This document shows positions 1,238 to 21,826 of a stretch of DNA of 64,000 bases, one piece after another (the stretch's first letter is position 1; the number at the start of each line of letters is the position of its first letter). The translations under genes and the position numbers were made by a program. The notes beneath the pieces were generated by a model, which worked only from the letters and a program-made list of their open reading frames with translations, was not told the origin of the DNA and ran no database searches. Source of the stretch: [Pseudomonas] carboxydohydrogena (lineage in GTDB: Bacteria; Pseudomonadota; Alphaproteobacteria; Rhizobiales; Xanthobacteraceae); contig NZ_CP113162.1 in the NCBI RefSeq assembly GCF_029030725.1, positions 124,001 to 188,000 of the forward strand, given 5' to 3'.

Positions 1238-3253
1238 TTATGAAAATAACGGCCTTCCTGCTTCTCGGAGCTTTTCCCCTTTGGCCCATTGTTCACGGAG
1301 AGCCCTAAGACGCAATTCGTGATCTGCGTGTTGCATAGCCACCTTTTCAAGGCCGTTACGTTCATCGATCAGCATTTTTCGATATTCGTACTGCTCTAAT
1401 TCCCACCCCGAACAGGCATCCACATCGCGCTTTTCTATTGCGAAAATTACTTTCAGGTCGTTTCCGGCTTTCCTCTGAGCATCTACGTCGATAAGCCGCG
1501 AAACACCTTTTCTCTGAGACGTAATTTTATCACCTGGCACCCAACCTAAGCGATGATCGATCTGCGTACGGTTGAAAAAGGCTAGATTGGCTCGATCGGA
1601 TGGGGCCAAACCAGCACATAATTGTCTTATGAGATTCAGATGGACAGCCAACGGCTGACTCTTCGGGAACAACTCGATTTGAACCGGAGTTTCTGGATTC
1701 ATCGCTAAAGCGCGCCGTCTGAAGAATTTATTCAGAATCCAGTTTGAAACGTCCGTCGCACAAGGAGGGAAATGGGCAGCTATTCGAGTAATAAGCCCAT
1801 CCTTCGGATCGTTCTGGTGAACATAAAGCCAATGAAGATGATCGTCTGCCGATAACTTCGCTCGGTTGACGAAATCACGAAGCTCCCTGCCAAAATCAGT
1901 CAGATGCTGCTCGGACCCGCCCTTCTTATGCGGCCGAAGATGCTCGTGGCGGATCAAAATGCGGGTATTGAGGAGCGCACCATAGGCTTGGACCATGAAG
2001 GAGGCGGAATGCCAAAGCTCCTTTGCCTCGTCCAAATTCAAGAATTTGGTTTCCGGCGTCTCCACGCTCTGCACTGAGCTTACTTTTGCTTCCCGTTTTG
2101 TCTCACGGCTATACCTTTGTCGTCGCTCTGCAGTGACTTGCCAACGATCGACAATATCGCTCGCACGCTCGTGGTCTCCGATGGATACACCACTCACCAG
2201 GTCCTCAAATTCACTGGCTTTGCGAAGGAGCGTCGTTGGCCCCATCGCGGGCTCTGGATCCCATATTTGCAGCAATTTGCGAGCAAACAGAGTGGGCTGC
2301 TCCTTTAGGCTAGACAGGCATCTGTTCAGATCCGTCGCGAACTCGGCGCGCTGCTCCAAGCTTATGCGATCTGCCCTGCTACCGATGTGCGTCCTGAAAA
2401 CCGTACTCAGATAGTCTCCCACCTGCCGCACCTTGTCTGGCGCAGGCGCCGACCATTCGTCCAAAAATGCAACTTGTTGAGCAAATGGCTTTCGTTCGAA
2501 GACGAGGCTAACATATCGAGAAGGCAACTTTCGGCCAAAGAGCCTTTCTACCGATTGGAGGGTAATGCTCCCCTCGTTCATCAGGACTTCCAAATCGCGT
2601 GCTAAGTCCCGAAATGAGCCTCCGGTGTACTCAGACAGCAATTCGAGTGCTCCTGAGTCAAAAGACACTTTTTCCTCGCGGCACAAAAACGATAGGTAAT
2701 CCGATTGCGCTTTGGCGGTTCGTGCGTGCAGAGGGAGCGGATAAAATAGAGCGCGTGCCTTGGCAGGAACCTGATCTTGGTCCTCGCAACAAAGGATGAA
2801 GGTCACACCTAGATAAGGTCTGGCCATCTCTTCATGCAGGATATCGAAGGCCCGCATCGACATCAGCTGTGCTTGCTCGACTAAAACGACAAGCCGTCCA
2901 CTCCCGAACGATTCTAGCCGAACACTGCGATCGACGCGCTTGGCAAATTCGACATCATCTATATGGCCGTGTCTCAGCCTTTTCAGATTCGGGTGATTGC
3001 CCGTCCGCAGATATTGGCAGGATTCACATTCAGACGACCCGCATGGTCGATTATTCAACGCCGGACACAGAAGAGCAGCCGCATACGCTTCGGCCAACGA
3101 TGTTTTGCCAGACCCCGCAGGTCCAAACAGAAGCACGCTTCTACCTGCATCGGCTTGCACCTGGTCGAGAAGATAAGACGAAGCTGCCTCTTGTCCAAAA
3201 ACGTCACCGAACGTTTCCGGTCGGTATTTTTCCGCCAAACTCAGGGTTTTCAT
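1238..3253 (-). CDS. DnaX-like clamp-loader AAA+ ATPase with unusual C-terminal region
   Basis: Predicted 671 aa. The N-terminal 250 residues follow DNA polymerase III gamma/tau: a YRPETFGDVFGQ opening, Walker A GPAGSGKT at 44-51, and four cysteines (63, 71, 76, 79) placed like the DnaX zinc module. The Walker B acidic motif is altered, with VVLVEQAQ (122-129) where DnaX has a DE-type box, and the usual SRC arginine-finger motif is not recognisable. Around residues 430-500 the text resembles rolling-circle replication proteins (LNTRILI, then W.YVHQND, G..TRI) but lacks the HxH metal site. Residues 525-529 read QIELF, matching the bacterial clamp-binding pentapeptide. The gene is divergent from two clamp-like genes, so a role in loading those clamps is likely but inferred. 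The start was chosen at the methionine before the conserved opening; longer in-frame starts run into the divergent gene. Confidence 0.8.
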   Translation of the reverse strand: MKTLSLAEKYRPETFGDVFGQEAASSYLLDQVQADAGRSVLLFGPAGSGKTSLAEAYAAALLCPALNNRPCGSSECESCQYLRTGNHPNLKRLRHGHIDDVEFAKRVDRSVRLESFGSGRLVVLVEQAQLMSMRAFDILHEEMARPYLGVTFILCCEDQDQVPAKARALFYPLPLHARTAKAQSDYLSFLCREEKVSFDSGALELLSEYTGGSFRDLARDLEVLMNEGSITLQSVERLFGRKLPSRYVSLVFERKPFAQQVAFLDEWSAPAPDKVRQVGDYLSTVFRTHIGSRADRISLEQRAEFATDLNRCLSSLKEQPTLFARKLLQIWDPEPAMGPTTLLRKASEFEDLVSGVSIGDHERASDIVDRWQVTAERRQRYSRETKREAKVSSVQSVETPETKFLNLDEAKELWHSASFMVQAYGALLNTRILIRHEHLRPHKKGGSEQHLTDFGRELRDFVNRAKLSADDHLHWLYVHQNDPKDGLITRIAAHFPPCATDVSNWILNKFFRRRALAMNPETPVQIELFPKSQPLAVHLNLIRQLCAGLAPSDRANLAFFNRTQIDHRLGWVPGDKITSQRKGVSRLIDVDAQRKAGNDLKVIFAIEKRDVDACSGWELEQYEYRKMLIDERNGLEKVAMQHADHELRLRALREQWAKGEKLREAGRPLFS

Positions 3254-3353
3254 GATGCTTTGCTGAGGCGTGAAGAAAGGTCGCTGTTTTCCAAACGAAT
3301 CAAGAGAATGACCTATATATCGCTGACTTCCACTCAGAGATTGCTGAAAACAC

Positions 3354-4760
3354 ATGACGGAAAATGCTTCAACTGAAATGCCTTCGGCTGAAGGTGAAAA
3401 TACCGGGCCAGATCTCTTCCAGGACGCTCAGTCGCATATAGATCTTGGGCCCCGACTTGATCCCAGTGAGATTTTTGACTTTGAATCGATCGATTTGGTC
3501 GACCTAGAAGACCGCGCCGAAGCAAACAATTTTGGACAGTTATCGACCGATTTCATCCCGCAAGCCTCAACCGGTGTCCAACGCCCCGAATTGACTGCTC
3601 CACTAGAGGAGTCCGAAATTGCCTTCGCGCTTCCCGAGACAGAGCTCCATCAAATTGTTGCGACCTTAGATGTTTTGTTTCGCCATTTGTCCAATCAAAG
3701 CCGACGTTGCCGTCTGACGATTGGTAATCAAAAGCTTGTTTGGCATGCGAACTATGGCAATGCCTTCATCGAATATATCTCGCACGACTTCGATGGGAAC
3801 ATTACGCCTAGACAAGAGGCCCCTCATGTCGTTGCATTTGACTTCGCTGATTTCGTCGCAGCTGCAGCGGCAACAAAAGGTCTCGGCACGTTTCGAATTA
3901 CCGGAAAAGAGAAAGATCGGTCGATCGAATTCACGTCTGAGGGTTTTAGTCGTCCCTTGGCTCTCGCCAAAGATCCGCATGACCGAAAGTTTTCATTCCC
4001 GACCGATAAGCGGCTCGCTCTGCTCGATGATGTAAAATCATCTGAGTTTGTACCCTCGGACACGCTACATTCCGCTTTAACGTTCGTGGGGAAATTAGCA
4101 ACTAATCATCCTGCGGAGCAACGCTTCGAGGTCGTCGAACTGAAAAACGGTGTCTGTCGATCAATATCGTCGGCGGGTGCAGCAACCGCAGCGTCAAAAT
4201 TATTTCAAGATCTCGATTTTAGCTTTCGCCCGTATTTTCTAAGGCTGATCTTGCCTGCCCTGAAGCTTAGTCCGGGCTATCGCTTCACTCATGCGAGTAA
4301 TTTTTGCGTTGCTCTCTCCGATCACAAAGTTTTCGGCTTTGAGGTCATCGAAGCTGCCCTTCCTGAAACACCTAAAATGAAGGCAGATGGCATCGTGCTG
4401 CTGCCACGACAGCCATTGATAAAATGTCTTTTAGCGGCGGCGCGGACATTCGGTGAAGAAGACACTTTAATTGAGCTCGACTACGAGAAGGTTGGCTCCC
4501 GAAGACTCCATCTGCGCTGTTACGAGCGCGAAAAGCCCCAGCGCTTGATGTTGTTCGACGCCGTTTGCGCCTTTGAGGGTGAAATCAAATCTTCTTTTAA
4601 GTCTAGACTCGATTTCAAACATCTCTTCCATGCACTCAGACAATTCGAGTCGCCCAACGTGGTAATGGAAATCGTTGAAAAAAACGGGATTGGGGTGCGT
4701 TTCACAGAGAAGCTGGAGGAGATCGAATACCTCTTTCTTTGCGCTGGAGTTAAACAATGA
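3354..4760 (+). CDS. Divergent DNA sliding clamp (DnaN-like), first paralogue
   Basis: Predicted 468 aa, longer than the usual clamp of about 370. The first 85 or so residues are acidic and low in complexity, probably disordered. The rest resembles three consecutive clamp domains. The best match is the last: FKSRLDFKHLFHALRQF followed by VVMEIV lines up with the DnaN domain-3 pattern of a FN-x-LLDAL helix and a VRLEL strand. The middle domain has the AALTFVGKLAT helix and strand pattern of domain 2. It overlaps the next clamp-like gene by 4 bases (ATGA), so the two products are probably made together. The chromosome's own dnaN is expected elsewhere. The function is inferred from fold resemblance and from the loader next door. 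Confidence 0.65.
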   Translation: MTENASTEMPSAEGENTGPDLFQDAQSHIDLGPRLDPSEIFDFESIDLVDLEDRAEANNFGQLSTDFIPQASTGVQRPELTAPLEESEIAFALPETELHQIVATLDVLFRHLSNQSRRCRLTIGNQKLVWHANYGNAFIEYISHDFDGNITPRQEAPHVVAFDFADFVAAAAATKGLGTFRITGKEKDRSIEFTSEGFSRPLALAKDPHDRKFSFPTDKRLALLDDVKSSEFVPSDTLHSALTFVGKLATNHPAEQRFEVVELKNGVCRSISSAGAATAASKLFQDLDFSFRPYFLRLILPALKLSPGYRFTHASNFCVALSDHKVFGFEVIEAALPETPKMKADGIVLLPRQPLIKCLLAAARTFGEEDTLIELDYEKVGSRRLHLRCYEREKPQRLMLFDAVCAFEGEIKSSFKSRLDFKHLFHALRQFESPNVVMEIVEKNGIGVRFTEKLEEIEYLFLCAGVKQ

Positions 4761-6079
4761 GCACACATACAAGCGCCGATGAAACTAACGCCGAAGTTAT
4801 CCTGCCGATGGAGAGCTCCTCAAACGCAGAGAGCGCGGTGTTAAGCAGTGAGAGCGTCACAGACGTAGATACATTGAGCGTGAAGGCCCTCCCGACTTCG
4901 TTTTCGAACGTGGGGTTTACTTTGCCAGCTAAACAAGCTCGAGATGCTTGGCGTGCTGTCGCAGCGGTCAAAGATCGCGACGACTTTTGTTTGTTCGTCT
5001 CAGAGGACTGCATACGGTTCAGCGCAGCAGCAAACGGAGAAAGCCTCGATGTAGAATATAAGCTTGATCCCTCTCTGAAGCCGCGTCTTGGCGCCACCCA
5101 GCTTAGTTTTGATATCGAAACGAAGGGTCTGGCGGCACTCGGGGTCATCGACACCGAGGGAGATGTAACTTTCAAATTTCCGGAAATCGATCTGGCTGTG
5201 GGCTCGACTGGCGCCTTCATCATCACGGTCGCGGATGCCTTCACCGTCAACTGGGATTACGTTCTGACAGCTGCGACGCCCGTAGGTCAGCCGCCTGATG
5301 AACGGCCTTCCGATGTTTCAGAGGAGGGGCGTCCGATTGATCCTCGTGTCCTTCGAAAAGTCATCAGCCGACTTCGTGATTTTACGGCGGAAGAAAACGT
5401 GATGGGAAGTGATTATACCGCAGTGCAGGTGGGTGGTGGAGCTGCCAGGGCAGGCATCCATGGTGCGGGATGCGAAATAATCTCCACCGAGATCAAGGAC
5501 ATCTCATTTTCCGTCGAACGAAAACTCGCAGGGTCAATCAATACGCTGTTGGGCATTCTAGCGCCGGAACGCACAACCCTTTGCTCAAATGAAGAAAGAC
5601 AAAAGCTGACTGACGGTCAGATGACTATCAGTGTTAAGCAAGGCGAATATGTGCCGGCGTTGCCAAAACTACAGAACCCGGTTGCGCAAATTCGTTCGGA
5701 CGGTTTTGTATTCGACGAAGCGCTCACGCGGATACGCGCCCAAATCAAAAATCAAAAACGGACTGATGATGTCGTTGTCGAAATGGTACTGTCGCCAGAC
5801 GACCAGACACTGACGTTTGCAACCGAAGTCAATGGCGGTGTGGCCCGCGTCGCAGCGAACGTCACTGCTGGGACGGGTGATCTTACGCCCACGTCGCTTA
5901 AATTTTTCAACTACCTCTTTGAAAAACTTGACGTCGAGATTCAGACAGTTGTCGAAATTGCCGTTTTCAAAAATGCTGTTTCGTTTATCCAAGATCACGA
6001 CAAAGAAAGCTATCGGACGCTCATTGCACCGCGGCGCGAAAAGCAGCCGGAGGCCCAATTCGTTCAAGTTGACGGATAA
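4757..6079 (+). CDS. Divergent DNA sliding clamp (DnaN-like), second paralogue
   Basis: Predicted 440 aa. A Ser/Glu-rich leader of about 45 residues comes before a domain resembling clamp domain 1 (FTLPAKQARDAWRAVAAVK, then strands). The C-terminus carries the clamp domain-3 ending: TPTSLKFFNYLFEKL, VVEIAVF, then YRTLIAPRR, which corresponds to the YVVMPMRL-type ending of DnaN. It is clearly different in sequence from the upstream clamp-like protein, so this is not a fresh duplication. Start and stop overlap the upstream gene in ATGA. The pair could form a heteromeric ring or two alternative rings. No polymerase or helicase lies nearby, so the client is unknown. Confidence 0.65.
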   Translation: MSTHTSADETNAEVILPMESSSNAESAVLSSESVTDVDTLSVKALPTSFSNVGFTLPAKQARDAWRAVAAVKDRDDFCLFVSEDCIRFSAAANGESLDVEYKLDPSLKPRLGATQLSFDIETKGLAALGVIDTEGDVTFKFPEIDLAVGSTGAFIITVADAFTVNWDYVLTAATPVGQPPDERPSDVSEEGRPIDPRVLRKVISRLRDFTAEENVMGSDYTAVQVGGGAARAGIHGAGCEIISTEIKDISFSVERKLAGSINTLLGILAPERTTLCSNEERQKLTDGQMTISVKQGEYVPALPKLQNPVAQIRSDGFVFDEALTRIRAQIKNQKRTDDVVVEMVLSPDDQTLTFATEVNGGVARVAANVTAGTGDLTPTSLKFFNYLFEKLDVEIQTVVEIAVFKNAVSFIQDHDKESYRTLIAPRREKQPEAQFVQVDG

Positions 6080-6201
6080 ATAAAGAGCGCCTTTCTTCAG
6101 CGCGAATCATCAATCAGCGGGACCCATATATTTCGCGCCTGACATTCGCTCGGATTCGCTACTTTCCTAAGTGACACCTTGGATACAGATTCTTGGCGAG
6201 G

Positions 6202-6229
6202 TTTCAGAGCAATGAAAGTTGCTCTGAAA
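6202..6229 (+). other. Perfect 11-bp hairpin downstream of the clamp genes
   Basis: TTTCAGAGCAA and TTGCTCTGAAA form a perfect stem around the loop TGAAAG, about 120 bases after the second clamp gene. No T-run follows, so it is not a simple terminator. It is part of a 474-base gap (6080-6553) that has no convincing gene but several inverted repeats. Confidence 0.6.
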
Positions 6230-6419
6230 TAGCCAGCCCCCGATGGGCTCCGTTTCTTCAGGCTAGCCAGGCTATGAAGAGACTGCGGATCGCAAGCCGA
6301 AGGGCATCGGCAAAAGCGTTGAGATAAACTCATTTCAACGCAGGAGTGGGCTCCGGTGTCTCCCGACCCACAGCAGTCGCGCGGTTGATGGATGTGCCGC
6401 GTGATAGCCCCGCCATAAG

Positions 6420-6476
6420 AAGCGGCGCGTAAAGGCCGACCGGATGACCCCGGCCTACCCGTAATAGGGTGCGCTT
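6420..6476 (+). ncRNA. Possible structured RNA with three-way-junction pairing
   Basis: Complementary segments are nested: AAGCG (6420-6424) with CGCTT (6472-6476) closes two inner hairpins, AGGCCG (6433-6438) with CGGCCT (6451-6456), and ACCC (6457-6460) with GGGT (6467-6470). This gives a compact junction. It lies between the clamp genes and the 205-aa gene, in a stretch without a recognisable gene. I cannot name an RNA family. It could be a leader element of the next gene or a separate small RNA. GC-rich sequence makes chance pairing easy, so confidence is low. Confidence 0.3.
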
Positions 6477-6529
6477 ATCCAAATCCCGACCGACGGCGTG
6501 GCTCCACAGTTTCGGCCCCCTTAGGAAAG

Positions 6530-6554
6530 CAGCTTCGCCTCGCAGGCGAAGCTG
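6530..6554 (+). promoter_or_regulatory. Hairpin covering the start of the 205-aa gene
   Basis: CAGCTTCGCCT (6530-6540) pairs perfectly with AGGCGAAGCTG (6544-6554) around a 3-base loop. Its right arm covers the only purine-rich site before the GTG start at 6554 and includes the first G of that codon. If transcribed it would hide the start, which suggests translational control. There is no T-run as expected for a terminator. Confidence 0.5.
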
Positions 6555-7171
6555 TGCCTTCGGACACAGACCCCTTCCTCAAACGTCCACCAAGTTTCGG
6601 TTCAAAGAAAAACAAGCCTTGGGTTATCCGAAACCTCCACGCTGACCGCTATATCTTTCAACTGAACGAGATGAGGCTTATGCACGTCGGATCTAATTAT
6701 TCACGTCTGGAGAAGCGGATCACCCAATCCCTTGAAAGTCCCGGGCTAAATCTCCGTGAGGCATCATTTCTTCAGGAGCTTTCGGAAAAGATCGGCATAT
6801 ACCGCGCCGACACTTTGATTTCAGACTCTGCGGCCAAATGGCTTTTTAATATTCTTAATCGAGGCGAGACATTCGCCCAAAAGAACAAACGGGCGGGGGC
6901 CCGGCCAGTTGCAGGTCGCTCTCCACGGAAGATCCCGCCGGCAGGTCTTGCTCCTATCGACCTAAAAAGTGTCGGATCGGCGGAAACTAGGCCCGAGCCA
7001 TCTCCGCAAAAGCCCGTAACCTCTTCGCCACCCGATCGTGCCACTTCAACTCCACGGCCATTGCCGGACGCCGCCACCGTTATTCTCCGAAGTCTCGAGA
7101 ACTCTCAAAAAAGAAGACAACGGGATTTTCGTCTGCAGGAGGAATTTAAGCGCGGCATGCGACGCTCTTAA
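6554..7171 (+). CDS. Hypothetical protein following the clamp cassette
   Basis: Predicted 205 aa with a GTG start; I do not recognise the family. Residues 20-125 look folded and mixed alpha/beta (for example KPWVIRNLHADRYIFQLNEMR and LREASFLQELSEKIGIYRADTLI). Residues 125-180 are rich in Pro, Ser and Arg and are probably disordered. The last 25 are basic (KRRQRDF, FKRGMRRS). The frame stays open upstream to 6419 without an ATG, so GTG at 6554 or an internal ATG at 6671 or 6680 is the start. It lies on the same strand as the clamp genes, 474 bases away, and could belong to the same system. Confidence 0.5.
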   Translation: MPSDTDPFLKRPPSFGSKKNKPWVIRNLHADRYIFQLNEMRLMHVGSNYSRLEKRITQSLESPGLNLREASFLQELSEKIGIYRADTLISDSAAKWLFNILNRGETFAQKNKRAGARPVAGRSPRKIPPAGLAPIDLKSVGSAETRPEPSPQKPVTSSPPDRATSTPRPLPDAATVILRSLENSQKRRQRDFRLQEEFKRGMRRS

Positions 7172-7282: not shown

Positions 7283-7295
7283 TATGGAGAGAGCT

Positions 7296-7733
7296 ATGGG
7301 TGCTTTGCCCCACTATCCGGCTTCCCGGTACGCGCCGTCCGCCCTCGTGAACTTCTCAGAGAAATCCGAGCGCGAGAAATTGAGCCCGGCCGCGGTCAAG
7401 GCGTTCTTCAACATCATGGACAAATGGTCCGTTCGTGACGAGGACGCGCGCGCCCTTATGGGCGGCGTGTCCAACGGCCAGTTCTATGGAATGAAAAAGG
7501 ATCCGGAGCGCACGCTTGACGCGGATACCCTCACGCGCGTGTCCTTTCTCATCGGCATTTTTAAAGCGCTCAACATCCTGTACTCGGAAAAACTCGCAGA
7601 CGTCTGGATTCAGCGGCCGAACACCAATCCGATCTTTGGCGGCCGGACGGCTCTCAGCTACATGGTTGAAGGCGGTCTGCCGGCCATGCAAACCGTTCGT
7701 CGCCTGCTCGACGCACGACGAGGCGCCGCGTGA
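7296..7733 (+). CDS. Xre/MbcA/ParS-type antitoxin
   Basis: Predicted 145 aa. The protein has the layout of antitoxins paired with RES toxins: an N-terminal helical DNA-binding part (LSPAAVKAFFNIMDKW, then ALMGGVSNGQFYGMK as the helix-turn-helix) and a C-terminal toxin-binding domain (W..RPN.NPIFGGRTALSYMVEGG, the MbcA/ParS signature). The start at 7296 has a GGAGAGAG site ahead; the alternative ATG at 7284 would sit almost on the promoter. The stop overlaps the GTG start of the RES gene by 4 bases, so the two are translated together. By family it should neutralise the downstream toxin and repress the operon. Confidence 0.85.
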   Translation: MGALPHYPASRYAPSALVNFSEKSEREKLSPAAVKAFFNIMDKWSVRDEDARALMGGVSNGQFYGMKKDPERTLDADTLTRVSFLIGIFKALNILYSEKLADVWIQRPNTNPIFGGRTALSYMVEGGLPAMQTVRRLLDARRGAA

Positions 7734-8407
7734 CACCAAGGGTACAGCTTGTCCGCCAAAACGACACCCACCGCCTGATCCCGTCCAAATACAGCGCTAA
7801 CGGCGACAGCGTTCTGGTCCGAATCGCGGATGACGATGATCACTTGGAAGCCATCTTCGAGCTCGACAACGCGACCAACGACCGGCTTCTTGCCGAGAAC
7901 AACCGGCTTCCTGGAATAGGCATCGACGAGCTCGTCTTCGGCATTCCCTACTTCCGGATTGTGAATGCCGCTTTCTGCCATGCGCATCCGAGCGGAAGCC
8001 GATTCAACAGCCCCGACCGCGGCGCGTGGTATGCCGGCTTTGACCTTGAGACTTCCCAAGCCGAAGTCGCATTTCATAAGTCGGTGGAGCTCGCGGAGGT
8101 CGATTGGCTCACCGAAGAGATCACCTACGACGATTACCTCGCGGACTTCAGCTCCAACTTTCACGACATTCGTGGCGACGCCAAATATGTCGACTGCCTC
8201 AATCCCGACAGCTATCTCGCATCACAAGACCTTGCCGAGACACTCCTCAAAAATGAAGCCCTTGGCATTATCTACCCAAGCGTTCGGCACACTGGCGGGA
8301 CTTGCCTCGCATGCTTCCGGCCCGCTTTGGTCGGAAATGTTCGAAAAGCCAAGACTTATCTCTTCGCCTGGAATGGGACTACGTCTCCGGTGATCGTAGA
8401 AATATAG
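7730..8407 (+). CDS. RES-domain toxin
   Basis: Predicted 225 aa, GTG start inside the antitoxin stop region. RES toxins are ADP-ribosyltransferase-like enzymes that deplete or use NAD+. Visible motifs are GSRFN at about residues 85-89, RGAWYAG just after, an E in the TSQAEVAFH segment, and a late GTCLACF region. Conserved Arg, Tyr and Glu residues of the family are therefore present. The pairing with a MbcA/ParS antitoxin is standard. The gene is convergent with the PIN gene, with only 37 bases between. An active toxin is likely because the frame is intact. Confidence 0.85.
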   Translation: MTPRVQLVRQNDTHRLIPSKYSANGDSVLVRIADDDDHLEAIFELDNATNDRLLAENNRLPGIGIDELVFGIPYFRIVNAAFCHAHPSGSRFNSPDRGAWYAGFDLETSQAEVAFHKSVELAEVDWLTEEITYDDYLADFSSNFHDIRGDAKYVDCLNPDSYLASQDLAETLLKNEALGIIYPSVRHTGGTCLACFRPALVGNVRKAKTYLFAWNGTTSPVIVEI

Positions 8408-8444
8408 AGGACTACTCCCGTTCCATCGACGACCGCCCAATCGG

Positions 8445-9104
8445 CTATTCTGAAGTCGTTGTAAGACTTCGCTCAAGAAGTGTGACTGCCTGCCATTCCT
8501 GTTGTCGAAACTTGTATCCCGGCAGGCTATTGCACTCGAGTGCGCGTTGCACGCCAATAAGACCAACGACGTGGTCGCAATGATCTTCATGAACGCGCAT
8601 ACGCCCCTTGCGAAGGGCGAGATAGAGAGCTTCGGTCGAGTCTGGCACACCGAGGATTTCTATGACCTGCGGATGTTGAAAAATGTCTAGTGACCAGCAC
8701 GGCAAGTTGCCATCGCAATTTGCTGGCACCCGTGACCGTCCTTTCCGCTCATCCAGGACCGGAAGATAGTTGCGGCAAGCGGCAACAGCGATCGTCGCTG
8801 CCTCGCCATCGTCTAGTGACGGCGTGGTTGACGTTAGCGTTTGGAAAACCTCGAACTCCGTCTCCGTCAAACTGACGAGCGTTACGATTCCATTCGTGAT
8901 GAGAGAATTTAGAAAACTGTACTCTCCATCCCTGCGACTCGCCTCGAGCTCTAGTTCTCCGGCTACGACGTCCGAAATGACGATGTGATTGGGGAGGGCC
9001 GAGAGAATCCGTTCGCCATACATACAAGCGTGAAGATTAATCAAAACGCTCGTGTCGAGAACCAGTGAATCTGCAACATCAATCAGGGAGCTTGAGTAAC
9101 TCAT
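8445..9104 (-). CDS. PIN-domain protein, last gene of the QueC-like operon
   Basis: Predicted 219 aa. The N-terminal part has PIN ribonuclease features: VLDTSVLINL with the first catalytic Asp at about residue 17, a GELELE acidic segment near 50, and DDGEAATIAVA near 97. A further Asp at LDERKGR fits the fourth acidic position. The last 60 residues extend past a minimal PIN domain. PIN proteins are metal-dependent RNases, often toxins. Here no small antitoxin is adjacent; instead the gene overlaps the 3' end of an XRE-ImmA gene by 26 bases, so it may be controlled by that protein. The ATG at 9104 has an AGGGAG site in front and is preferred to the TTG at 9107. Confidence 0.7.
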   Translation of the reverse strand: MSYSSSLIDVADSLVLDTSVLINLHACMYGERILSALPNHIVISDVVAGELELEASRRDGEYSFLNSLITNGIVTLVSLTETEFEVFQTLTSTTPSLDDGEAATIAVAACRNYLPVLDERKGRSRVPANCDGNLPCWSLDIFQHPQVIEILGVPDSTEALYLALRKGRMRVHEDHCDHVVGLIGVQRALECNSLPGYKFRQQEWQAVTLLERSLTTTSE

Positions 9105-10269
9105 CAATCTCCCTTTCTTCCAACTCTATTTGATCGATGATGCCGCGAAGCTCTACTCGGCCAACCTTGAGCAATTCCGCCAGTTGTCCTTCTGACATAA
9201 GCCCCCGCTTCCAGGCGGCATGTGCCATCAAACTTAAGCGATGAGAGATTGCTCGGTTCGCATCATTCTTCCCCAGATCGAGATTATCGGGCATTTCACC
9301 GAGAACCTCCCGAACATGCTCCTCGGTAATCCCGCCGTTGTTCTCGAACCATGCCCACGTGCCTTTTTTCGCGAGCCCTAACTCCTCCAGCCGAAGTCCG
9401 CATGCTTGGCGCGAAATATTATATTGCCGAGCTAGGAGAATGATAAGCCGTCGGGTGATTCTGCCGGTGATTTCCTTTAGCTGGCGGAAGCTTTCCGAAA
9501 AGCTCTCAGCCGGCGTTAAGAATGCCCGGCCGAAAGCGTTGGCATAGCGCTCATCCCGTGACAGAAATTTCTCATCCACTTCCAATACTTCAGGAGTCTG
9601 GCGAGTGCCGTAGAAATGCCCAACTTCGTGAGCCGCGGATTGGATACGCCTCGGCAGTGGGTGATTGGCATTAAGCAGAATGCACGCTCCCACGCTTTCA
9701 TCGTAAGTGAATAGACCTGCGACCTTTGAACCCGAAGAAAGGCGCCGCTGGTACAGCCGGATGCCGAGACCAAGTTCAATGATCGAGAAAATGTCTGGGA
9801 TCGGTCCTGATCCAAGACCCAGCCAATCCCGTAATTCCTTGGCGTGCCTTTCGGCGAGAGCCACAACGTCACCCTCATTGATCCCACGTTCGGGAGGGTA
9901 ATTTCGCCGACGTTGAACCCCAAGAACGTTCTCCATTTCAACGTCGGCTTTGATCAAATCGTTGAATAATTGAACGGCTTCGGCGGCATGAACGCCCTCG
10001 GCTTCTCGCAACTTACGGAAGCGAGGCATAAGATCGGTATGCACTGCTTCCCGGCGGAGAATTGAATTCACCGATACGCCGTAGTGGCGCGCGAGCATCT
10101 GGATTTCCTGGATGCGCACACGACGGACGCCCTTCTCGATGGACACCAGCGTGGGACGCGACATCCCAATGACTTGAGCTGCGTCATCCTGGCGAATCTC
10201 TGCATTTTCCCGTGCTATTCGGAGGCGGCGTCCTATTTCATGTGAGCTGAGCTCATTTAGATTGGACAT
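9079..10269 (-). CDS. XRE regulator fused to ImmA/IrrE-type metallopeptidase
   Basis: Predicted 396 aa. Residues 8-70 form an XRE helix-turn-helix (IGRRLRIARENAEIRQ, then IGMSRPTLVSIEKG). A metallopeptidase domain follows, with AAHEVGHFYG giving the HExxH zinc site at 214-218 and a second acidic region near ERYANAFGRAFLTP. Such proteins, like ImmA and PezT/IrrE relatives, cleave or inactivate repressors on a signal and can act as antitoxin-like switches. The start at 10269 has a strong GGAGG site 5 bases ahead. It overlaps the upstream QueC-like gene by 17 bases and the downstream PIN gene by 26, so all are translationally coupled. A role as the sensor or controller of the operon is inferred. 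Confidence 0.85.
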   Translation of the reverse strand: MSNLNELSSHEIGRRLRIARENAEIRQDDAAQVIGMSRPTLVSIEKGVRRVRIQEIQMLARHYGVSVNSILRREAVHTDLMPRFRKLREAEGVHAAEAVQLFNDLIKADVEMENVLGVQRRRNYPPERGINEGDVVALAERHAKELRDWLGLGSGPIPDIFSIIELGLGIRLYQRRLSSGSKVAGLFTYDESVGACILLNANHPLPRRIQSAAHEVGHFYGTRQTPEVLEVDEKFLSRDERYANAFGRAFLTPAESFSESFRQLKEITGRITRRLIILLARQYNISRQACGLRLEELGLAKKGTWAWFENNGGITEEHVREVLGEMPDNLDLGKNDANRAISHRLSLMAHAAWKRGLMSEGQLAELLKVGRVELRGIIDQIELEEREIDELLKLPD

Positions 10270-11638
10270 AGCGTCCTCCATCCATCCAGCTTTTCAAAAA
10301 GCCTTGTTCTCCTTGTGCAGACAAAAAAGTCTGCCATTCCTGAGCATGGGTTACCAACATCGTCCTTAGTTTCTTCAGAGTGTCCTCGTAGCTTTCACCT
10401 ATCGCCCGCGCGATTTGCGAGGCGTGAGCGCGAAGATCGTCATCGGGCCAATCGCTCATGTCCGCGAGATGCTGCAGGTGACGAGCACCAACGCTCCCGT
10501 ACTCCACCATGATGTCTCGATCAGCCTTTTGAGGTATGACCGACAGGGCATCGCTCCCTGTGGAGACGGTAAGGTCGGATACGACATACGCGCCTGGCAC
10601 CTCGTCAACGCCAGCGGCGTGCAGGCTGAGGCGTCTCAGCAAACAGGCAGCGCACAGACCGCAGTGCTTCCTATCGCCTACATTGACAACCCGGCGGCTC
10701 TGCCAACAGGAGCGAGTATCCGTTAAATGCGCTTTGGATTTCCCGTCTACACCCAGAAATGCTCGTAATGTCTGACCTTTCGTCGACCACAGGCGCGGTT
10801 GTTCAAATCGAAGCTGATAGCCCTGCAGCGACTTAATAAAGCGCTCCATCTTCCGGAAGAAAGTCGGATGGTTACGATAGTCGGCATAAATGTTATGCAG
10901 CGGCAGGAGCACTGGCCCGAGCGCACCCTGACCGCTTTCCGGAACGATGATACGTGACACGTTGGAGAGCTGTGCAGCAATTGCCGTCAGTGCAGCAAAC
11001 TGAAATCCGCGCGAACGAAAACTACTCTCGTTACTGGGGCACCTCTTAACTTTGAATGGAATTTGCGTGAAGAACCTGTCGCCATTCCTTCGATTCTGGT
11101 GACTGCCAGCCACTCGAATGCATAGTGCTTCGCTCTCGTTACCACTCAGAGCGGACACCGCCCGCGAGTCCAGCCCCTCGCTGTAGGCAATGGCGAAGGT
11201 CTTAGTCTTGCCGAAGTCCAACAGCATCTGCCGCGAGCCGATTGGCGATAGGTTCTTCGCCTTTATAAAGGTAAATCGCCACGTATCCCCGGTCAGGTAG
11301 TTCAAGACGCCATGAAGGCTCTTCAATACCTCCGGCTTTTGCCAAGTTTTAAGATCTACAACAGGCAGCGTTACATTCAAGTTGCGGCGCCAACCTAGCG
11401 GACGCTTCCAGCGACGGTCAGCGAATTCAACGGCGGCACTCAGAACCAGCATATCGTAATGCAGCGACTCACATCCCTTCACGTCAAAGGTATCTAGAAC
11501 CGCCGGGTCGAAGTAAATATGCTCCCCGATCTCCGCGGTCGCGGAATACTTCGAAGAGATACGAGCCGACTTCTGCCCCTTTTCGATGACGTGTAGATTT
11601 TTGTTGGACATTGATGGTTTTTTCGGGTTAGCGCTCAC
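10253..11638 (-). CDS. QueC-like PP-loop protein
   Basis: Predicted 461 aa, about twice the length of housekeeping QueC. AYSEGLDSRA at 151-160 is a variant of the PP-loop motif SGGLDS, which binds ATP. Four cysteines (311, 326, 329, 332) reproduce the QueC zinc site, in the order C then CGLCAAC. The first 125 residues and the last 110 have no recognised match. QueC makes the deazaguanine preQ0, and QueC-like proteins also occur in anti-phage systems (QatC in Qat, Cap9 in type IV CBASS). None of the other queuosine genes is nearby, so a defence-type role is more likely than tRNA modification. The GTG start at 11638 touches the upstream stop (TAGTG). Confidence 0.75.
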   Translation of the reverse strand: MSANPKKPSMSNKNLHVIEKGQKSARISSKYSATAEIGEHIYFDPAVLDTFDVKGCESLHYDMLVLSAAVEFADRRWKRPLGWRRNLNVTLPVVDLKTWQKPEVLKSLHGVLNYLTGDTWRFTFIKAKNLSPIGSRQMLLDFGKTKTFAIAYSEGLDSRAVSALSGNESEALCIRVAGSHQNRRNGDRFFTQIPFKVKRCPSNESSFRSRGFQFAALTAIAAQLSNVSRIIVPESGQGALGPVLLPLHNIYADYRNHPTFFRKMERFIKSLQGYQLRFEQPRLWSTKGQTLRAFLGVDGKSKAHLTDTRSCWQSRRVVNVGDRKHCGLCAACLLRRLSLHAAGVDEVPGAYVVSDLTVSTGSDALSVIPQKADRDIMVEYGSVGARHLQHLADMSDWPDDDLRAHASQIARAIGESYEDTLKKLRTMLVTHAQEWQTFLSAQGEQGFLKSWMDGGRYVQSK

Positions 11639-12210
11639 TATTCAGGCCCTTCATCCACGCCGTCTTTTTTCTGAACAGCTTGCTTAAAAGCTCGCTTATT
11701 ACCGGTGACCAAAGCGTCGCACAGATCGCTGGACTTGATGGCACTGAACGTCTCTCGATTGCGGTCGATTCCCGTCTGGTAATCTTCGCGGCTCATATCG
11801 CCGAGTTCGCGAGCGCGTATGCATTCCTCATCGATTCGGTTCTTAGTGGTGCCGATCCACTCTCTTGCCGTGCTCTCGAGCGCTTTATCGAGCGCGTTCT
11901 CAGGAGAGACTTGATCTCCGAAGTTGGCAATCAAATGCCGTTGCAAAGCGTCAGCTAAAGTCGCCGTCGAATGATTTTCAAAAATCGTTTCGAGCGCCGG
12001 GATGGGATCAAGATCCATTTGGCGACGCTCAAGGTGCGCCTTGAGCTCTCTCAGAAGAGGATTGAACGTCTCCATCTCCGCATCGCCAATCATGCTAAGG
12101 CATGCTTGCGCTACGCGCTCTTCCTGGCTCGCAGCGTCGCTAACCAGTTGCTGGCCATAGCGCTTCCAGCAGCTAGGTAGCTTCGCGTTTCTGAACGGTC
12201 CATCGGTCAT
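11638..12210 (-). CDS. Hypothetical protein, first gene of the QueC-like operon
   Basis: Predicted 190 aa, mostly helical and charged, with no family I recognise. It has a strong GGAGGGG site before the ATG and its stop touches the GTG of the QueC-like gene. By position it corresponds to the small unknown gene that precedes QatC in Qat systems, but I cannot show homology. There are no signal peptide, membrane segment or catalytic motif visible. Confidence 0.6.
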   Translation of the reverse strand: MTDGPFRNAKLPSCWKRYGQQLVSDAASQEERVAQACLSMIGDAEMETFNPLLRELKAHLERRQMDLDPIPALETIFENHSTATLADALQRHLIANFGDQVSPENALDKALESTAREWIGTTKNRIDEECIRARELGDMSREDYQTGIDRNRETFSAIKSSDLCDALVTGNKRAFKQAVQKKDGVDEGPE

Positions 12211-12471: not shown

Positions 12472-13644
12472 ATGTCGACCAAGACTTCATCCTCTGAACG
12501 ATCATCTCGCAAAGGGGCGCCACCGCCTCTTCTTCGCACGCCCTTCGTCAGCGACACCGTGGCCAAACACTACGACTCGCATTGCATGATCGATTCGCGC
12601 TTCCGTCGGGCAGCGCGCCTTCTCCAGATCCTCTGGATGCGCGATCAAAGCATTCCTAACGCGGCAGAAGAAGAACGTGGCGCCCACCTCGGCTCTTATC
12701 TGCGCGCCGATGCCGCCGAGGATGGCCTTAACTTCATCTCACCTCAGGTTCATCTGCTCGCGCTTCGTGAGCTTCTGCTTCGTGAGGAAGATGCCGCGAT
12801 CGACGAAGACCGCCTGATCACCAACACCCTGAGTTCGATGCCGCTGGTATTCAACGCGTTCGGCCCACTCGCACTCGACACGAAGCTTGCGACGTCCGTG
12901 TTCCGCCAGTTGCTGCCCGACTTCGTTCATTCGGTCGAGGGGATCGCCTTCGAACATTCTCCTGGCCGCCGTGACGAGCGCTTTCTAGCCGACCGCTCCG
13001 CGTTCGACGTTGCCATTTACGTCGTAACGCCCGAAGGCGAGCTCGGGATCGTGTACTGCGAGGTCAAGTATAGCGAGGATATGGCTGGGCCATGCGCTCG
13101 TTGGCGAGATCGCTACGACGAAGCTCTGCAAGAAGTCGCGCTCTATAAAAATCCCGACAGCGCGATGCTTCGTACACCGCCGATCGAACAGTTGATGCGC
13201 GAGCACATGCTCGCTCAACTTGCGGTCGACCACCGTATCACACCTCGCGCCATGTTCATCGCGATCGGGCCGCGCTTGAATCGTCGTGCACAGGCGGCGT
13301 TCCGCGTCTACGAAAAGGAACTGCTGCCCGTCGACGACAGTGACTCAACCCGGGTTCGTTTCCAGCATTTTACGTTGGAAGCTTTCATCGACGCCATCGA
13401 TGTTGCCGGCGATCAAGAGATCGCTGACAAGCTCTGGACGCGTTACTGCGACTTCCGGCGAGTTTACGATGCCGCGATGGCTGTCATCGCTCCCAGAGCG
13501 GATGACTCTTCAAATTCGATCTCAGCCAGTGAAAACATTCCGGCCGAAAGCGGAAGGCAAAAGGCTTCTCCTCGGGGCAAGCGCTCGACGCGCCGGACTC
13601 CCACGGCCCAGAATTCGGAGCCGATGGAGGCTGCCCATGGCTGA
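12472..13644 (+). CDS. PD-(D/E)XK nuclease-like protein (PGN_0703-type)
   Basis: Predicted 390 aa. The early MIDSRFRRAARLLQILW and GAHLGSYL blocks, then AFDVAIYV (D179) and YCEVKYS (E197, K199), give the D...ExK core of the PD-(D/E)XK nuclease fold, resembling the PGN_0703 family of putative restriction-type endonucleases. The last 50 residues are Ser/Lys/Arg-rich and look disordered. The gene starts at an ATG with a CGGAGA site and overlaps the following DUF2958 gene by 8 bases. No methylase or helicase partner is present. The substrate is unknown; a restriction or repair role is inferred only from the fold. Confidence 0.65.
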   Translation: MSTKTSSSERSSRKGAPPPLLRTPFVSDTVAKHYDSHCMIDSRFRRAARLLQILWMRDQSIPNAAEEERGAHLGSYLRADAAEDGLNFISPQVHLLALRELLLREEDAAIDEDRLITNTLSSMPLVFNAFGPLALDTKLATSVFRQLLPDFVHSVEGIAFEHSPGRRDERFLADRSAFDVAIYVVTPEGELGIVYCEVKYSEDMAGPCARWRDRYDEALQEVALYKNPDSAMLRTPPIEQLMREHMLAQLAVDHRITPRAMFIAIGPRLNRRAQAAFRVYEKELLPVDDSDSTRVRFQHFTLEAFIDAIDVAGDQEIADKLWTRYCDFRRVYDAAMAVIAPRADDSSNSISASENIPAESGRQKASPRGKRSTRRTPTAQNSEPMEAAHG

Positions 13645-13978
13645 GAGGGACCTTCTTTCAGTGGAAGATCGCGTTCGCCTTCTGGTGAACGCGCTGGCCG
13701 ACGAAAAAGACCACGAGCCGGTTCTGAAACTCTTTACGCCGGATGGCAAGGCGACTTGGCTTCTCACCGAGTCCGACCCTGACGATCCCGATCGTTTATT
13801 CGGGTTGTGCGACCTTGGTCTTGGCTCGCCAGAGATCGGTTACGTTTCTCTGGCCGAGCTCACCGCTCTTCGCGGGTTGCTCGGGCTACCGATCGAACGT
13901 GATCTGCACTTCATCGCCGACAAACCGCTTTCCGCTTACGCTGAAGAGGCAAGGCTTAAGGGTCGGATCAGCGCCTAA
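13637..13978 (+). CDS. DUF2958 protein
   Basis: Predicted 113 aa, starting at the ATG that overlaps the nuclease-like gene's end. The pattern KLFTPDGKATWLLTESDPDD, then FGLCDLGLGSPEIGYVSLAEL, and ERDLHFIADKPLSAY is typical of DUF2958, a small domain of unknown function found on plasmids and integrative elements of Proteobacteria, often beside DNA-processing genes. No catalytic motif is apparent. Overlap with the nuclease-like gene suggests co-production. Confidence 0.85.
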   Translation: MAERDLLSVEDRVRLLVNALADEKDHEPVLKLFTPDGKATWLLTESDPDDPDRLFGLCDLGLGSPEIGYVSLAELTALRGLLGLPIERDLHFIADKPLSAYAEEARLKGRISA

Positions 13979-16996: not shown

Positions 16997-17205
16997 CCAA
17001 ATCTAAATTCGCCGGGAAAGCGAACGCCTTGCGCGACTCGTCTGATAGACCCTGACCGGCGCGCGGGACCGCGGCCGGACCGCCAGTTTTGGAGAAAAGA
17101 GAAGAGGGTAAGGGCTTGCTCTTTAAATGATCCACGGCTTCACATAGATGGCCAATTCATTGAAATAAATATACTATTGATAATATTGACATTTCCATTG
17201 ATTGT

Positions 17206-17241
17206 TGTCAGGTTTTTGTTATATTGAATGTCAGGTTTTTG
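17206..17241 (+). repeat. Direct repeat upstream of the AbiE-type operon
   Basis: TGTCAGGTTTTTG occurs exactly twice (17206-17218 and 17229-17241), 23 bases apart, just before the ribosome binding site AAAGGAGG. A TTGACA box lies upstream near 17187 and TTATAT lies between the copies. AbiEi-type antitoxins repress their own operon by binding repeats, so these are likely operator sites. Confidence 0.55.
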
Positions 17242-17255
17242 CAAAGGAGGCAGCT

Positions 17256-17696
17256 ATGGCCGCCCATACGGCAAGAAAGTCTGCACCGAAGAAAACACTG
17301 CGCGGCAAGATCGAACACCACATCGCCCGCAAGGTGAATGATGAAGTGTTTTTGACCCGCGAGTTCAAGAAGCTTGGCGGGGAGAGCCAAGTGCTGCGCG
17401 CGTTGCGCGAGATGGTGCACGAAGGCCGCCTCGTGCGGCTCGGCTACGGCATCTATGGCCGCGCGCGCCCGTCCAGCTTGAGTGGCAAGACCGTCTTGAG
17501 CAGCCGTGAGGGTTTCTTGGGTGTCGCCCAGCAGGCGCTTGATAAACTCGGCGTGGAGTGGGAGCCAACGGAGGCGCAGAGCGCCTACAATGAAGGCCGT
17601 TCCACGCAAGTCCCGGTCAACCCGGTCGTGCGCGTCAAAGGCCGTTTCTCCCGGCATTTAAGTTACCGCAACGCGGAGTTGGTTCTTGAACGGTAA
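17256..17696 (+). CDS. AbiEi-type antitoxin / DUF6088 regulator
   Basis: Predicted 146 aa from the ATG at 17256, which has a near-perfect AAAGGAGG site. The winged-helix part (VFLTREFKKLGGESQVLRALREMVHEGRLVRLGYGIYGRA) is typical of DUF6088/AbiEi-like antitoxins of type IV systems. By family it represses the operon and counteracts the nucleotidyltransferase toxin. The toxin gene begins 11 bases before its stop. Longer frames from 17202 include the operator repeats and are unlikely. Confidence 0.85.
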   Translation: MAAHTARKSAPKKTLRGKIEHHIARKVNDEVFLTREFKKLGGESQVLRALREMVHEGRLVRLGYGIYGRARPSSLSGKTVLSSREGFLGVAQQALDKLGVEWEPTEAQSAYNEGRSTQVPVNPVVRVKGRFSRHLSYRNAELVLER

Positions 17697-18609
17697 ACCG
17701 TCGCTCGACGACTTCGTCGACGTGCAGGATCACTTTGGCTTGCCGAGCGCAGGCCTTGTTGAGAAGGACTGGCACGTGGCGCGGGCGCTAGCCGCCATTG
17801 CCGCTGTCGACACGGGCGATCTTCGCCTTGTGTTCGGCGGCGGCACGGCCTTGAGCCGAGCGTACAAACTGACTAACCGCATGTCGGAAGACATCGATCT
17901 CAAGATTGTCAGCGACAATAAGCCCTCATCCAACACACTTCGCAAGTTCCGGCAAAGCATCACCAATGCCCTGCTTGGGGTGGGCTTCGTGTTCGATCCC
18001 GCTAACGAAGCCCATCGCCGCGTGATGTATGGCGGCGAATACACGAAATATATGTTGCCCTATGAAGCGGTAGCGCAAGGCGCTGGGTTGCGCCCCGGCG
18101 TGCAGATCGAGTTTTCCGTCTGGCCCCTGCGCCGGCCTGCGATCGATAAGCCGATTGCGTCTTTCTATGCCGAGGCGAAGGGGCTTGACCCCGAGGTCGC
18201 CTCGATTCCGTGCTCGTCCGTACTGGAGACGGCTGCGGAAAAGCTCACGGGCCTCACATGGCGTGCGGGCTCGGAGCTTGCTGGATTGCGCAAGGATCGC
18301 GATCCGACCTTGGTGCGGCACATCTATGATTTGCACATGACGCGCGAGGCCTATGACGCCAAGGAAGTCGCCACGCTCGCACGCGAGGTGATGAAGGACG
18401 ACGCCGCAACGCGCGGCAAGAGTTTTCCGGCCTATCGGAAAGACCCGTTGGCCGAGACGCTCCGCGCCATCGAAGGCATCCCGAAAGATAAGGTTTTTAT
18501 CGACGGCTACGCCACCTTCCAGCGCGACATGGTCTATGGCGACAAACCGGACTTCGCCACAGCAATGATATCGCTCGACGCACTCGCGGATCATCTCAAG
18601 AAGCTATAG
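17686..18609 (+). CDS. AbiEii/AbiGii-type nucleotidyltransferase toxin
   Basis: Predicted 307 aa with a TTG start and a GGAG site, overlapping the antitoxin. The nucleotidyltransferase signature is clear: LVFGGGTALSRAYKL, then RMSEDIDLKI, giving the GG...S and DxD motifs near residues 48-70. AbiEii-family enzymes add nucleotides, in known cases to tRNA 3' ends, and stop growth, acting in abortive phage defence or plasmid stability. The catalytic residues look intact. Confidence 0.9.
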   Translation: MNGKPSLDDFVDVQDHFGLPSAGLVEKDWHVARALAAIAAVDTGDLRLVFGGGTALSRAYKLTNRMSEDIDLKIVSDNKPSSNTLRKFRQSITNALLGVGFVFDPANEAHRRVMYGGEYTKYMLPYEAVAQGAGLRPGVQIEFSVWPLRRPAIDKPIASFYAEAKGLDPEVASIPCSSVLETAAEKLTGLTWRAGSELAGLRKDRDPTLVRHIYDLHMTREAYDAKEVATLAREVMKDDAATRGKSFPAYRKDPLAETLRAIEGIPKDKVFIDGYATFQRDMVYGDKPDFATAMISLDALADHLKKL

Positions 18610-20116: not shown

Positions 20117-21655
20117 TTATTTGGCCACGACAGATGATTTCAAATCAATCTCCGGAATTTTACAGAGTTCGCGGTAGAGAGCTTCGATCGGGTATTCGCC
20201 GTAGTTGTCGGCAACACTCTTTTGTCCGTGACCCGTAATGGCCTCCAGGATGTCTTTTGCCAATCCATGTTTGCGACCGAGCGTCTTAATCCTGTGACGC
20301 CACGAGTGACTTGGGGAAAGGCGAGTATCAGTGATGCCAAGTGCCCTCACCCAGCGGCCAATGACTTTGGTGCCATTACCGCCTCGCTTTCCAAACTTGT
20401 CGGGCTTTAGATGGGGAAAGATCGGGCCGGGTTTAGCCTCCTCAACAAACTTTAGGAAACCGCTCTCAATCAGAGCTGGATGCAGCGGCACTGCACGTTC
20501 GGAGTTTGAATTTTTTAGAGGACCAGCCTCAGGATCGAATTTCATGCACCAAACACCATCGATTCGGATGATGTCACTTGTTCGTAACTGACAAAGCTCA
20601 GAGACACGAGCGCCAGAGTATGCGCCCAGCCAGGGTACCCATCGCCGAACAGAATCCTTCTCGCTGAGAGCATTTGAAAGAATGAGCCGCGCCTCTTCAT
20701 CAGTGAAGCTACGCTTACGTTCGGTGGCAATCACTTTGATTTCGACAGAAACCTTTTCCGCCGGGTTATGCGCGAGCTTCCGGTTCTCGTAGCCCCACTG
20801 GAAAATGGCTCTGACCGGCGCAAGCTTTGCGTTCTGCACCGTACGCGTTCGAAGACCGCCTGAGATCATCGCCTCTTTCCAACGAACAACATCGTCGGCT
20901 GTAACGCGACCGGCGTCGTCGTGACCCAGAAACTTTTCGAATGCTCGCAGAACCCGCGTCCATTCATAGAGTGTCTTCTTCGCTGGCAAACGCTCGTTAG
21001 ACCAGCCGCGAAGCAATTCATCGAATTTGACGCCGACCTTAGCTCCTAAGATAGGCCTCGGCACAATATCACTGCTCAATCCTGCCCCGAAATCACCTTT
21101 CGCATATCGAGCAAGTGTAATGCTGGCTCGCTGAACTGCATGACCGATCGCTCGAGCGACCAACCTTATGTTTTCCGGACTCTCAGCGAGGCCGCGCCAT
21201 TGCAATGTTTCCTTCGCGCAGTCGCGGCAGGCCGCCTCCATATCCATGATGGCTCGAACATCAGGATGCAGTGGCGCAAAAATGTCGATGTCGAGTTTGT
21301 TTGTCCTGGGCGGCGGCATAAACAATCGATCGGCAAGGTCAACACGCCACGATGTCTGTGACGACGGACTGTCCTTGTATAGTTCGAGCCAGCGGTCGTG
21401 CCACGTAACTGCGAGTTCGTGCGCTTCCCGCTCGGTTAGCTTGGAAGAGCCTGCGCGTAAATTTGCCCAACGCTCTTCGACTTCCGCTAGTACCTTTGCG
21501 TGGCGTTGACGCGCCACTGCGGGGTCTTTCGTTTTGAGGCTCTGCTTCTCTTCTAGTTTGCCGACAAGCGCACGCAAATCCGCAGGGACGCCCCTGCGAA
21601 ACCAATACACACCACTATTTGGATGTTGCCACGGACGAGACATTGATAAGGGCAT
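20117..21655 (-). CDS. Tyrosine site-specific recombinase (island integrase)
   Basis: Predicted 512 aa. The N-terminal part (GVYWFRRGVPADLRALVGK, then KTKDPAVARQRHAKVLAEVE) is the DUF6538-type arm-binding region of alphaproteobacterial integrases. A core-binding domain follows (ERLPAKKTLYEWTRVLRAFEKFLG). The catalytic domain has GARVSELCQLR with the first Arg, a Lys in the beta region, SHSWRHRIKT with HxxR, and VADNYGEYP with the nucleophilic Tyr. The gene stands about 90 bases from the 3' end of tRNA-Leu, the usual target of such enzymes. It should catalyse insertion and excision of the element to its left. Confidence 0.93.
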   Translation of the reverse strand: MPLSMSRPWQHPNSGVYWFRRGVPADLRALVGKLEEKQSLKTKDPAVARQRHAKVLAEVEERWANLRAGSSKLTEREAHELAVTWHDRWLELYKDSPSSQTSWRVDLADRLFMPPPRTNKLDIDIFAPLHPDVRAIMDMEAACRDCAKETLQWRGLAESPENIRLVARAIGHAVQRASITLARYAKGDFGAGLSSDIVPRPILGAKVGVKFDELLRGWSNERLPAKKTLYEWTRVLRAFEKFLGHDDAGRVTADDVVRWKEAMISGGLRTRTVQNAKLAPVRAIFQWGYENRKLAHNPAEKVSVEIKVIATERKRSFTDEEARLILSNALSEKDSVRRWVPWLGAYSGARVSELCQLRTSDIIRIDGVWCMKFDPEAGPLKNSNSERAVPLHPALIESGFLKFVEEAKPGPIFPHLKPDKFGKRGGNGTKVIGRWVRALGITDTRLSPSHSWRHRIKTLGRKHGLAKDILEAITGHGQKSVADNYGEYPIEALYRELCKIPEIDLKSSVVAK

Positions 21656-21741: not shown

Positions 21742-21826
21742 TGGTGCCCAGGAAAGGACTCGAACCTTCACGCCTTGCAGCACAGGTACCTGAAACCTGC
21801 GTGTCTACCAATTCCACCACCTGGGC
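21742..21826 (-). tRNA. tRNA-Leu (anticodon CAG)
   Basis: The minus strand folds as a complete class II tRNA: acceptor stem GCCCAGG with CCTGGGC, D arm, anticodon stem CAGGT/ACCTG with loop TTCAGGT giving CAG, a short variable arm, the T-loop TTCGAGT, and an encoded CCA end. It remains intact although it is the likely integration target, as is normal when the element carries a copy of the 3' end. Confidence 0.95.

Follow-up and report, generated by a model that had tools for sequence, protein, structure and literature searches.

What does a mobile element do with a clamp loader and two sliding clamps of its own? This question is raised by a 64,000-nucleotide stretch of DNA from [Pseudomonas] carboxydohydrogena (bases 124001-188000 of a single 3.27-Mb contig; hereafter the window), in which a loader-like gene and two clamp-like genes lie on a genomic island. 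The initial annotation described this trio as a self-contained cassette that would either act on the element's own DNA by recruiting host polymerases, or capture invading replication forks as a defence. Our analysis reveals that the trio is a real, rare replication-type module among the replication modules of mobile elements. On balance, we consider it probable that it serves as the replication module of an integrative island, although its mechanism can only be outlined conditionally. We base this reading on homologies, motif losses, a recurring gene order and related loci with Rep- or VapE-type modules. The trio is organized as follows:

1238..3253, minus strand: loader-like protein with a DnaX-type AAA+ half and a C-terminal degenerate HUH Rep domain
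2297..3253, minus strand: AAA+/DnaX-like part of the loader, from motif comparison
1241..2038, minus strand: C-terminal loader domain, by sequence a rolling-circle Rep (HUH) homologue, without HxH and catalytic Tyr at the aligned places
1766..1798, minus strand: remnant of the HUH strand in the loader, GLITRIAAHFP versus GLHTHVLAHMP in the stand-alone Rep of genome G1012
3254..3353, no strand: divergent intergenic gap of 100 bases
3354..4760, plus strand: clamp 1, 468 residues, with an N-terminal tail of ~85 residues followed by a putative sliding-clamp-like fold
4757..6079, plus strand: clamp 2, 440 residues, probable sliding clamp

The reading frame of the loader is open to base 3355. We prefer a start at M35 of this frame (base 3253), because the relatives begin near this position; it yields the 100-base divergent gap already described in the initial annotation. 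Residues 39-353 match DnaX, which also provides the best NCBIfam and PDB matches; the protein has an AAA+ domain of the DnaX/HolB type, with the Walker A motif GPAGSGKT retained. With DnaX (gamma/tau; TIGR02397, PF13177) the loader shares the AAA+ fold, Walker A and four zinc-type cysteines, the latter being present in all 14 loaders of our motif table. In contrast to DnaX, it stays far below the TIGR02397 equivalog cut-off (106 of 250 bits), carries Glu-Gln instead of the Walker B Asp-Glu and Leu instead of the SRC-type arginine, with the Walker A lysine retained, and has a Rep-derived C-terminal half that does not correspond to tau domains IV-V, the C-terminal part of DnaX. The clamp loader family PHROG 5846 is matched over residues 35-262 with an expect value (E) of 5.2e-24. 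A search of the host genome with the loader returned one further match, taken as the host dnaX.

The DnaX-like AAA+ loader of the initial annotation thus stands for the first half of the protein, but its second half, a degenerate HUH Rep domain, had been missed. The C-terminal 276 residues gave no Pfam match up to E 1. However, a profile of this domain from the window and from a second genome of the genus (G522, contig 2) matched the stand-alone Rep of G1012 with E 4.6e-17 among 397 genomes of the order. By BLASTP, the same Rep is matched by the loaders of the window (E 1.5e-10), G522 (4.3e-16) and G448 (3.0e-18), and the window loader also weakly matches the Reps of L085 (4.6e-5), a second place in the host genome, and of G590 (1.2e-4). 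The G1012 protein carries FHWIYVHERSDERGLHTHVLAHMP and the window loader LHWLYVHQNDPKDGLITRIAAHFP, so that the surroundings of the motif are kept and the HxH pair is lost. The REP_ORF2-G2P model PF23343 recognizes the stand-alone Rep of L086, a third place in the host, above its cut-off of 27.8 bits (32.1 bits); the Reps of G1012 (25.5 bits), G590 (18.8) and L085 (11.4) score below it. At the aligned places, HxH and the catalytic Tyr are found in 4 of 4 stand-alone Reps versus 0 of 15 loader domains (14 loaders and the G562 remnant, counting both members of the nearly identical pair G540/G493 and excluding the G563 remnant); one His of HxH remains in the G591 domain. As judged by sequence comparison, the C-terminal domain of the loader is homologous to rolling-circle HUH Rep initiators, among them stand-alone Reps beside the same PDDEXK_13 gene (see below), and has lost their nicking residues. 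Differing from these Reps also in its fusion behind a loader ATPase, it would not be expected to nick DNA as they do.

Clamp 1 looks like a sliding clamp, as judged by fold searches with a weak model (pLDDT, the predicted local distance difference test, of 40.6): among the matches listed, 46 of 50 in Foldseek and 48 of 50 titles in VIA name clamps or processivity factors, including DnaN, PCNA and 9-1-1 clamps. Clamp 2 is a probable sliding clamp. Its model failed, and 47 of 50 rows of the fold search with it were PCNA at E 0.02-0.08; the protein also shows a weak relationship to the one clamp-like protein at the G448 locus. Neither clamp matched DnaN sequence profiles. Comparing three sets of clamps with 22 DnaN sequences by hhalign gave nothing significant, and neither did BLASTP of the two window clamps against each other. 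In G522, clamp 1 weakly matches the first piece of clamp 2 (phmmer, E about 5e-4 with 8 sequences searched). A PDB sequence search with the clamp-like proteins of G670 and G448 yielded nothing relevant. Of the initial assignment of both proteins as DnaN-like, the clamp-like character of clamp 1 can be kept on its weak model, but that of clamp 2 is only probable. Compared to DnaN, for which PF02767 finds one gene in the host, which is among the matches listed for its weak model, clamp 1 has no sequence match and a long N-terminal tail, and the window carries two different clamp-like genes in tandem.

How often does such a module occur? Two loader-domain profiles were searched against overlapping genome sets that included the host: A3 matched in 3 of 397 order and 4 of 29 genus genomes, A8 in 14 of 296 family and 3 of 264 order genomes. 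Sixteen of the 18 matched places contain a loader or its remnant, and two (G1012 and G590) a Rep and no loader. Clamp-like genes are present at four of the 16 loader loci (window, G522 contig 2, G448 and G670), ten are clamp-less with a downstream HolB-like gene, and two are remnants (G562 and G563). The full trio was found in the same divergent layout in one further genome of the genus, on G522 contig 2, where the second clamp is frameshifted; the A3 scan of a genome contig collection confirmed one of 54 stretches, which is this same locus. The three genes thus occur together more than once, and the trio proposed initially is real, dedicated and carried on a mobile element, but clamp 2 is only a probable member by identity. 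In G448, the loader is divergent from one clamp-like gene. The window, L006 and L027 have one gene order in common (loader, clamp(s), PDDEXK_13, DUF2958) and also agree in the relative strands of these genes; in the window, 6.4 kb containing a noncoding element and cargo lie between the clamps and PDDEXK_13. The PDDEXK_13 gene is present in 13 of the 16 fetched loader stretches and in both Rep places, and is missing from the fetched stretches of L019 (a 13.6-kb contig), L026 and L075.

Searches were also started from the clamps. Clamp query P0003 matched in 3 of 385 class genomes, itself and two weak matches that we rejected as clamps, reading them by eye as methyl-accepting-type proteins. Among 296 family genomes it matched in three, of which by context only G522 is real, and query P0002 found itself, G522 and two weak matches. 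None of 40 stretches was confirmed in the P0003 scan of the genome contig collection, viral contig scans found none, and plasmid and phage collections gave no match to the clamps, the loader domains or the G1012 Rep.

The clamp-less loaders (L019, L028, L068-L074 and L080) combine a degenerate HUH domain with intact ATPase motifs: all ten have the Walker A lysine, the Walker B Asp-Glu and the SRC-type arginine. Downstream follow a protein of ~400 residues and then the HolB-like protein, fused in some. The ~400-residue gene was considered as HolA by eye and rejected, as three tested in Pfam matched no loader family. At L080 (12257-14657), genes that appear by eye patatin-like and CD-NTase-like stand directly after the loader module. 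Eight of the ten loci have a VapE-like gene before the loader; none lies beside the window trio. In the loader trees, window and G522 group with support 100/100. The domain tree separates clamp-bearing from clamp-less loaders (84/90) and places the two Reps used with the former. The host DnaX groups with the clamp-less loaders (87/87) in the full-length tree; therefore, the clamp-bearing loaders are not established as one clade. Branches in these trees are long, support is moderate, and the root is for drawing only.

The motif changes of the window loader bear on whether the trio is a relic, that is, a former replication module losing function, with a loader that no longer hydrolyses ATP and clamps that match no DnaN model because they drift. 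We regard this as unlikely. The Walker B and SRC-type changes of the window loader would fit it, as would G522 contig 2, where the Walker A lysine is Ile, Walker B is Asp-Gln, the SRC-type arginine is Gln and clamp 2 is frameshifted. Decayed loci are seen as well: the G562 loader is cut off beside a transposase-like frame (labelled by eye), G563 holds only a fragment, and the G670 loader is split into two frames, with lysine and arginine retained and Glu-Glu as Walker B. The G448 loader retains lysine, arginine and Asp-Glu. On the other hand, all three genes of the window have open frames (671-705, 468 and 440 residues), and the loaders of window and G522 share the cysteines and are 40% identical. 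Moreover, both loaders of the 100/100 pair have lost the Walker B Glu and the SRC-type Arg, a loss that fits decay but also a changed role.

A further comparison concerned the surroundings of the PDDEXK_13 gene. The host has three copies of this gene (0 of 14 control genomes have any), and the two other copies accompany HUH Reps with intact motifs:

L085, host contig 3110000-3127000: PDDEXK_13 place with an intact HUH Rep of 312 residues
L086, host contig 3192500-3209500: PDDEXK_13 place with an intact HUH Rep of 288 residues

L086 shares DNA blocks with the window island (87.5% over 2440 bases, 81.7% over 1630 and 74.9% over 358) and also contains its backbone genes. The window island itself has a lower GC content and spans from a gene ending at 549, of RND efflux type by eye, to a tRNA-Leu, the likely integration site because an integrase adjoins it. 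Its further features are:

6226..6570, plus strand: structured noncoding element of 345 nt, putatively RNA or origin-type DNA
12472..13644, plus strand: PDDEXK_13 nuclease-superfamily gene, part of the backbone of this island family
13637..13978, plus strand: DUF2958 gene, overlapping the PDDEXK_13 gene
20117..21655, minus strand: phage-type integrase, beside tRNA-Leu
21742..21826, minus strand: tRNA-Leu(cag), likely integration site

The third-position GC of the trio is 0.49-0.53, versus 0.84-0.88 in three host genes. No attachment repeat of at least 12 bp was found to be shared by the tRNA-Leu region and the opposite side of the island. Repeats near the trio are two-copy direct families and single inverted pairs, and the region of the divergent gap (3240-3370) has no repeats of at least 11 nt. 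The cargo at 7284-12210 comprises an Xre/RES pair, PIN, ImmA/IrrE with an RmrA-like score and a QatC-like QueC protein. At 17202-18609, a DUF6088 gene and an AbiEii nucleotidyltransferase probably form a type IV toxin-antitoxin pair.

Window positions 6229-6599 match L071, L086, L069 and L070 among the loci longer than 7 kb. Copies of the element lie at:

window 6226-6600
L071 12944-13317, minus strand
L086 11632-11975, minus strand
L069 about 4700-4990, minus strand

In an alignment of four sequences (leaving out L070), 79 pairs were obtained with 97.3% of cells paired and 20 pairs changed on both sides. None of 500 shuffles reached any of five measures, and slid versions had at most 6 pairs changed on both sides, a comparison that favours the structure, as it was derived from the same alignment. 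The single-strand z-score for 6226-6565 is -4.17, and Rfam had no match in 6080-6700 up to E 1. The element also occurs on the Bradyrhizobium elkanii plasmid pK03D-1 (77.7% over 345 bases), surrounded by insertion sequences and genes of metabolism, and a Methylobacterium plasmid has 43 bases of it; the element is therefore not tied to the trio. Judging from covariation, 6226-6570 appears to be a conserved structured element with strong covariation, either RNA or origin-type DNA, and its relation to the trio is putative.

Could the trio instead defend its host by seizing invading forks, or by blocking foreign replication through the loading of an inert clamp? This proposal draws on the neighbouring cargo (RES/Xre, PIN, the RmrA-like ImmA/IrrE, QatC-like and AbiEii genes) and on the patatin- and CD-NTase-like genes of L080. 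Such cargo, however, is common on islands, and nothing else speaks for fork capture. PADLOC has no model matching either clamp and assigns the loader only weakly to IetA and mad8, around the ATPase motif. Furthermore, the clamp-less relatives mostly accompany a VapE-like replication-type gene, and other related loci carry Reps. We thus consider a defence role improbable, and a replication module of the island's own the best reading of the two. Less probable still is a role of the clamps outside copying, as a mobile tether to which island proteins (such as the PDDEXK_13 nuclease) would attach, for instance to exclude rival elements. Clamps commonly recruit partners, and the frequency of PDDEXK_13 genes at the loader loci would agree with such a tether. 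Yet clamp-less loaders (9 of 10) and stand-alone Reps have this gene nearby as well, and it therefore does not track the clamps. Among the island proteins scanned, a pattern resembling a clamp-binding motif occurs in only one, the loader itself (QIELF at residue 559 of the 705-residue frame, in the degenerate HUH domain), and is not retained in G522.

Taken together, the evidence favours action on the element's own DNA, one of the two roles suggested initially: the loader has a Rep-derived domain, and related loci contain, close to the same PDDEXK_13 gene, either a Rep or a set of VapE-like, loader and HolB-like genes. Under the replication-module reading, the loader may have arisen by fusion of a DnaX-type AAA+ loader with a rolling-circle Rep, whose half, its nicking residues lost, would have been kept for binding the island origin. 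Once the island is excised, the loader would deliver a dedicated clamp to this origin, probably a ring built from clamp 1 and clamp 2, and host DNA polymerase III might be seated there via the clamp. The window loader would bind ATP and act as a non-hydrolysing subunit or tether in a hybrid loader with host subunits, because it lacks the Walker B Glu and the SRC-type Arg and no gene for delta or delta-prime was seen next to it. For the same reasons, the trio is not self-contained as first supposed.

Several observations weigh against this reading. The model of clamp 1 is of low confidence and aligns well mainly over residues 346-467, clamp 2 is no more than a probable clamp, and the G670 clamp-like gene was called by eye and place only. 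The trio itself was found just twice, and the partial loss of ATPase motifs, more advanced in G522 contig 2, also fits decay. The homology between loader and Rep passes mainly through G1012: BLASTP at E 1 gave no match between the window loader and the Rep of L086, the sister island nearest to it, and profile A8 missed both host Reps at E 1e-4. No origin was identified. Finally, the place of the module differs: the L086 Rep and the L071 loader module are flanked by PDDEXK_13 on one side and by the noncoding element on the other, and in the window, L069 and L070 it is the element that separates PDDEXK_13 from the module.

Extra clamp and loader genes outside the host replisome are also found in phages (PHROG 5846) and as second clamps in two other genomes:

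L051 6927-7976 and L052 7254-8417: second DnaN genes in prophage-like regions (by eye) of G632 and G489

Unlike the window clamps, those of G632 and G489 are recognizable DnaN, and neither genome has a loader-domain match; we rejected them as kin of the trio, as their regions lack a window-type loader. We know of no phage loaders with a Rep domain. In line with the initial annotation, a literature search conducted mostly outside subscription journals found no described system of this make-up, and no DnaX-HUH fusion or loader-clamp island module.

A tentative and rather doubtful extension is that the trio represents a new class of initiator, in which a loader has captured and disarmed a Rep and initiates replication of the element without cutting, through the placement of a dedicated two-gene clamp at the origin. 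The family would then lead from an intact Rep via an active loader-Rep fusion with helicase and HolB-like partners to a loader that has dedicated clamps and whose ATPase is fading. In replication, the rolling-circle initiator and the clamp loader are usually two distinct parts; the trio combines them in a single protein whose cutting site is lost, accompanied by clamp-like proteins so diverged that sequence searches miss them. If this view is correct, targeted clamp loading can start the replication of a mobile element, and the family would supply natural intermediates between an active Rep and a disarmed Rep-loader.

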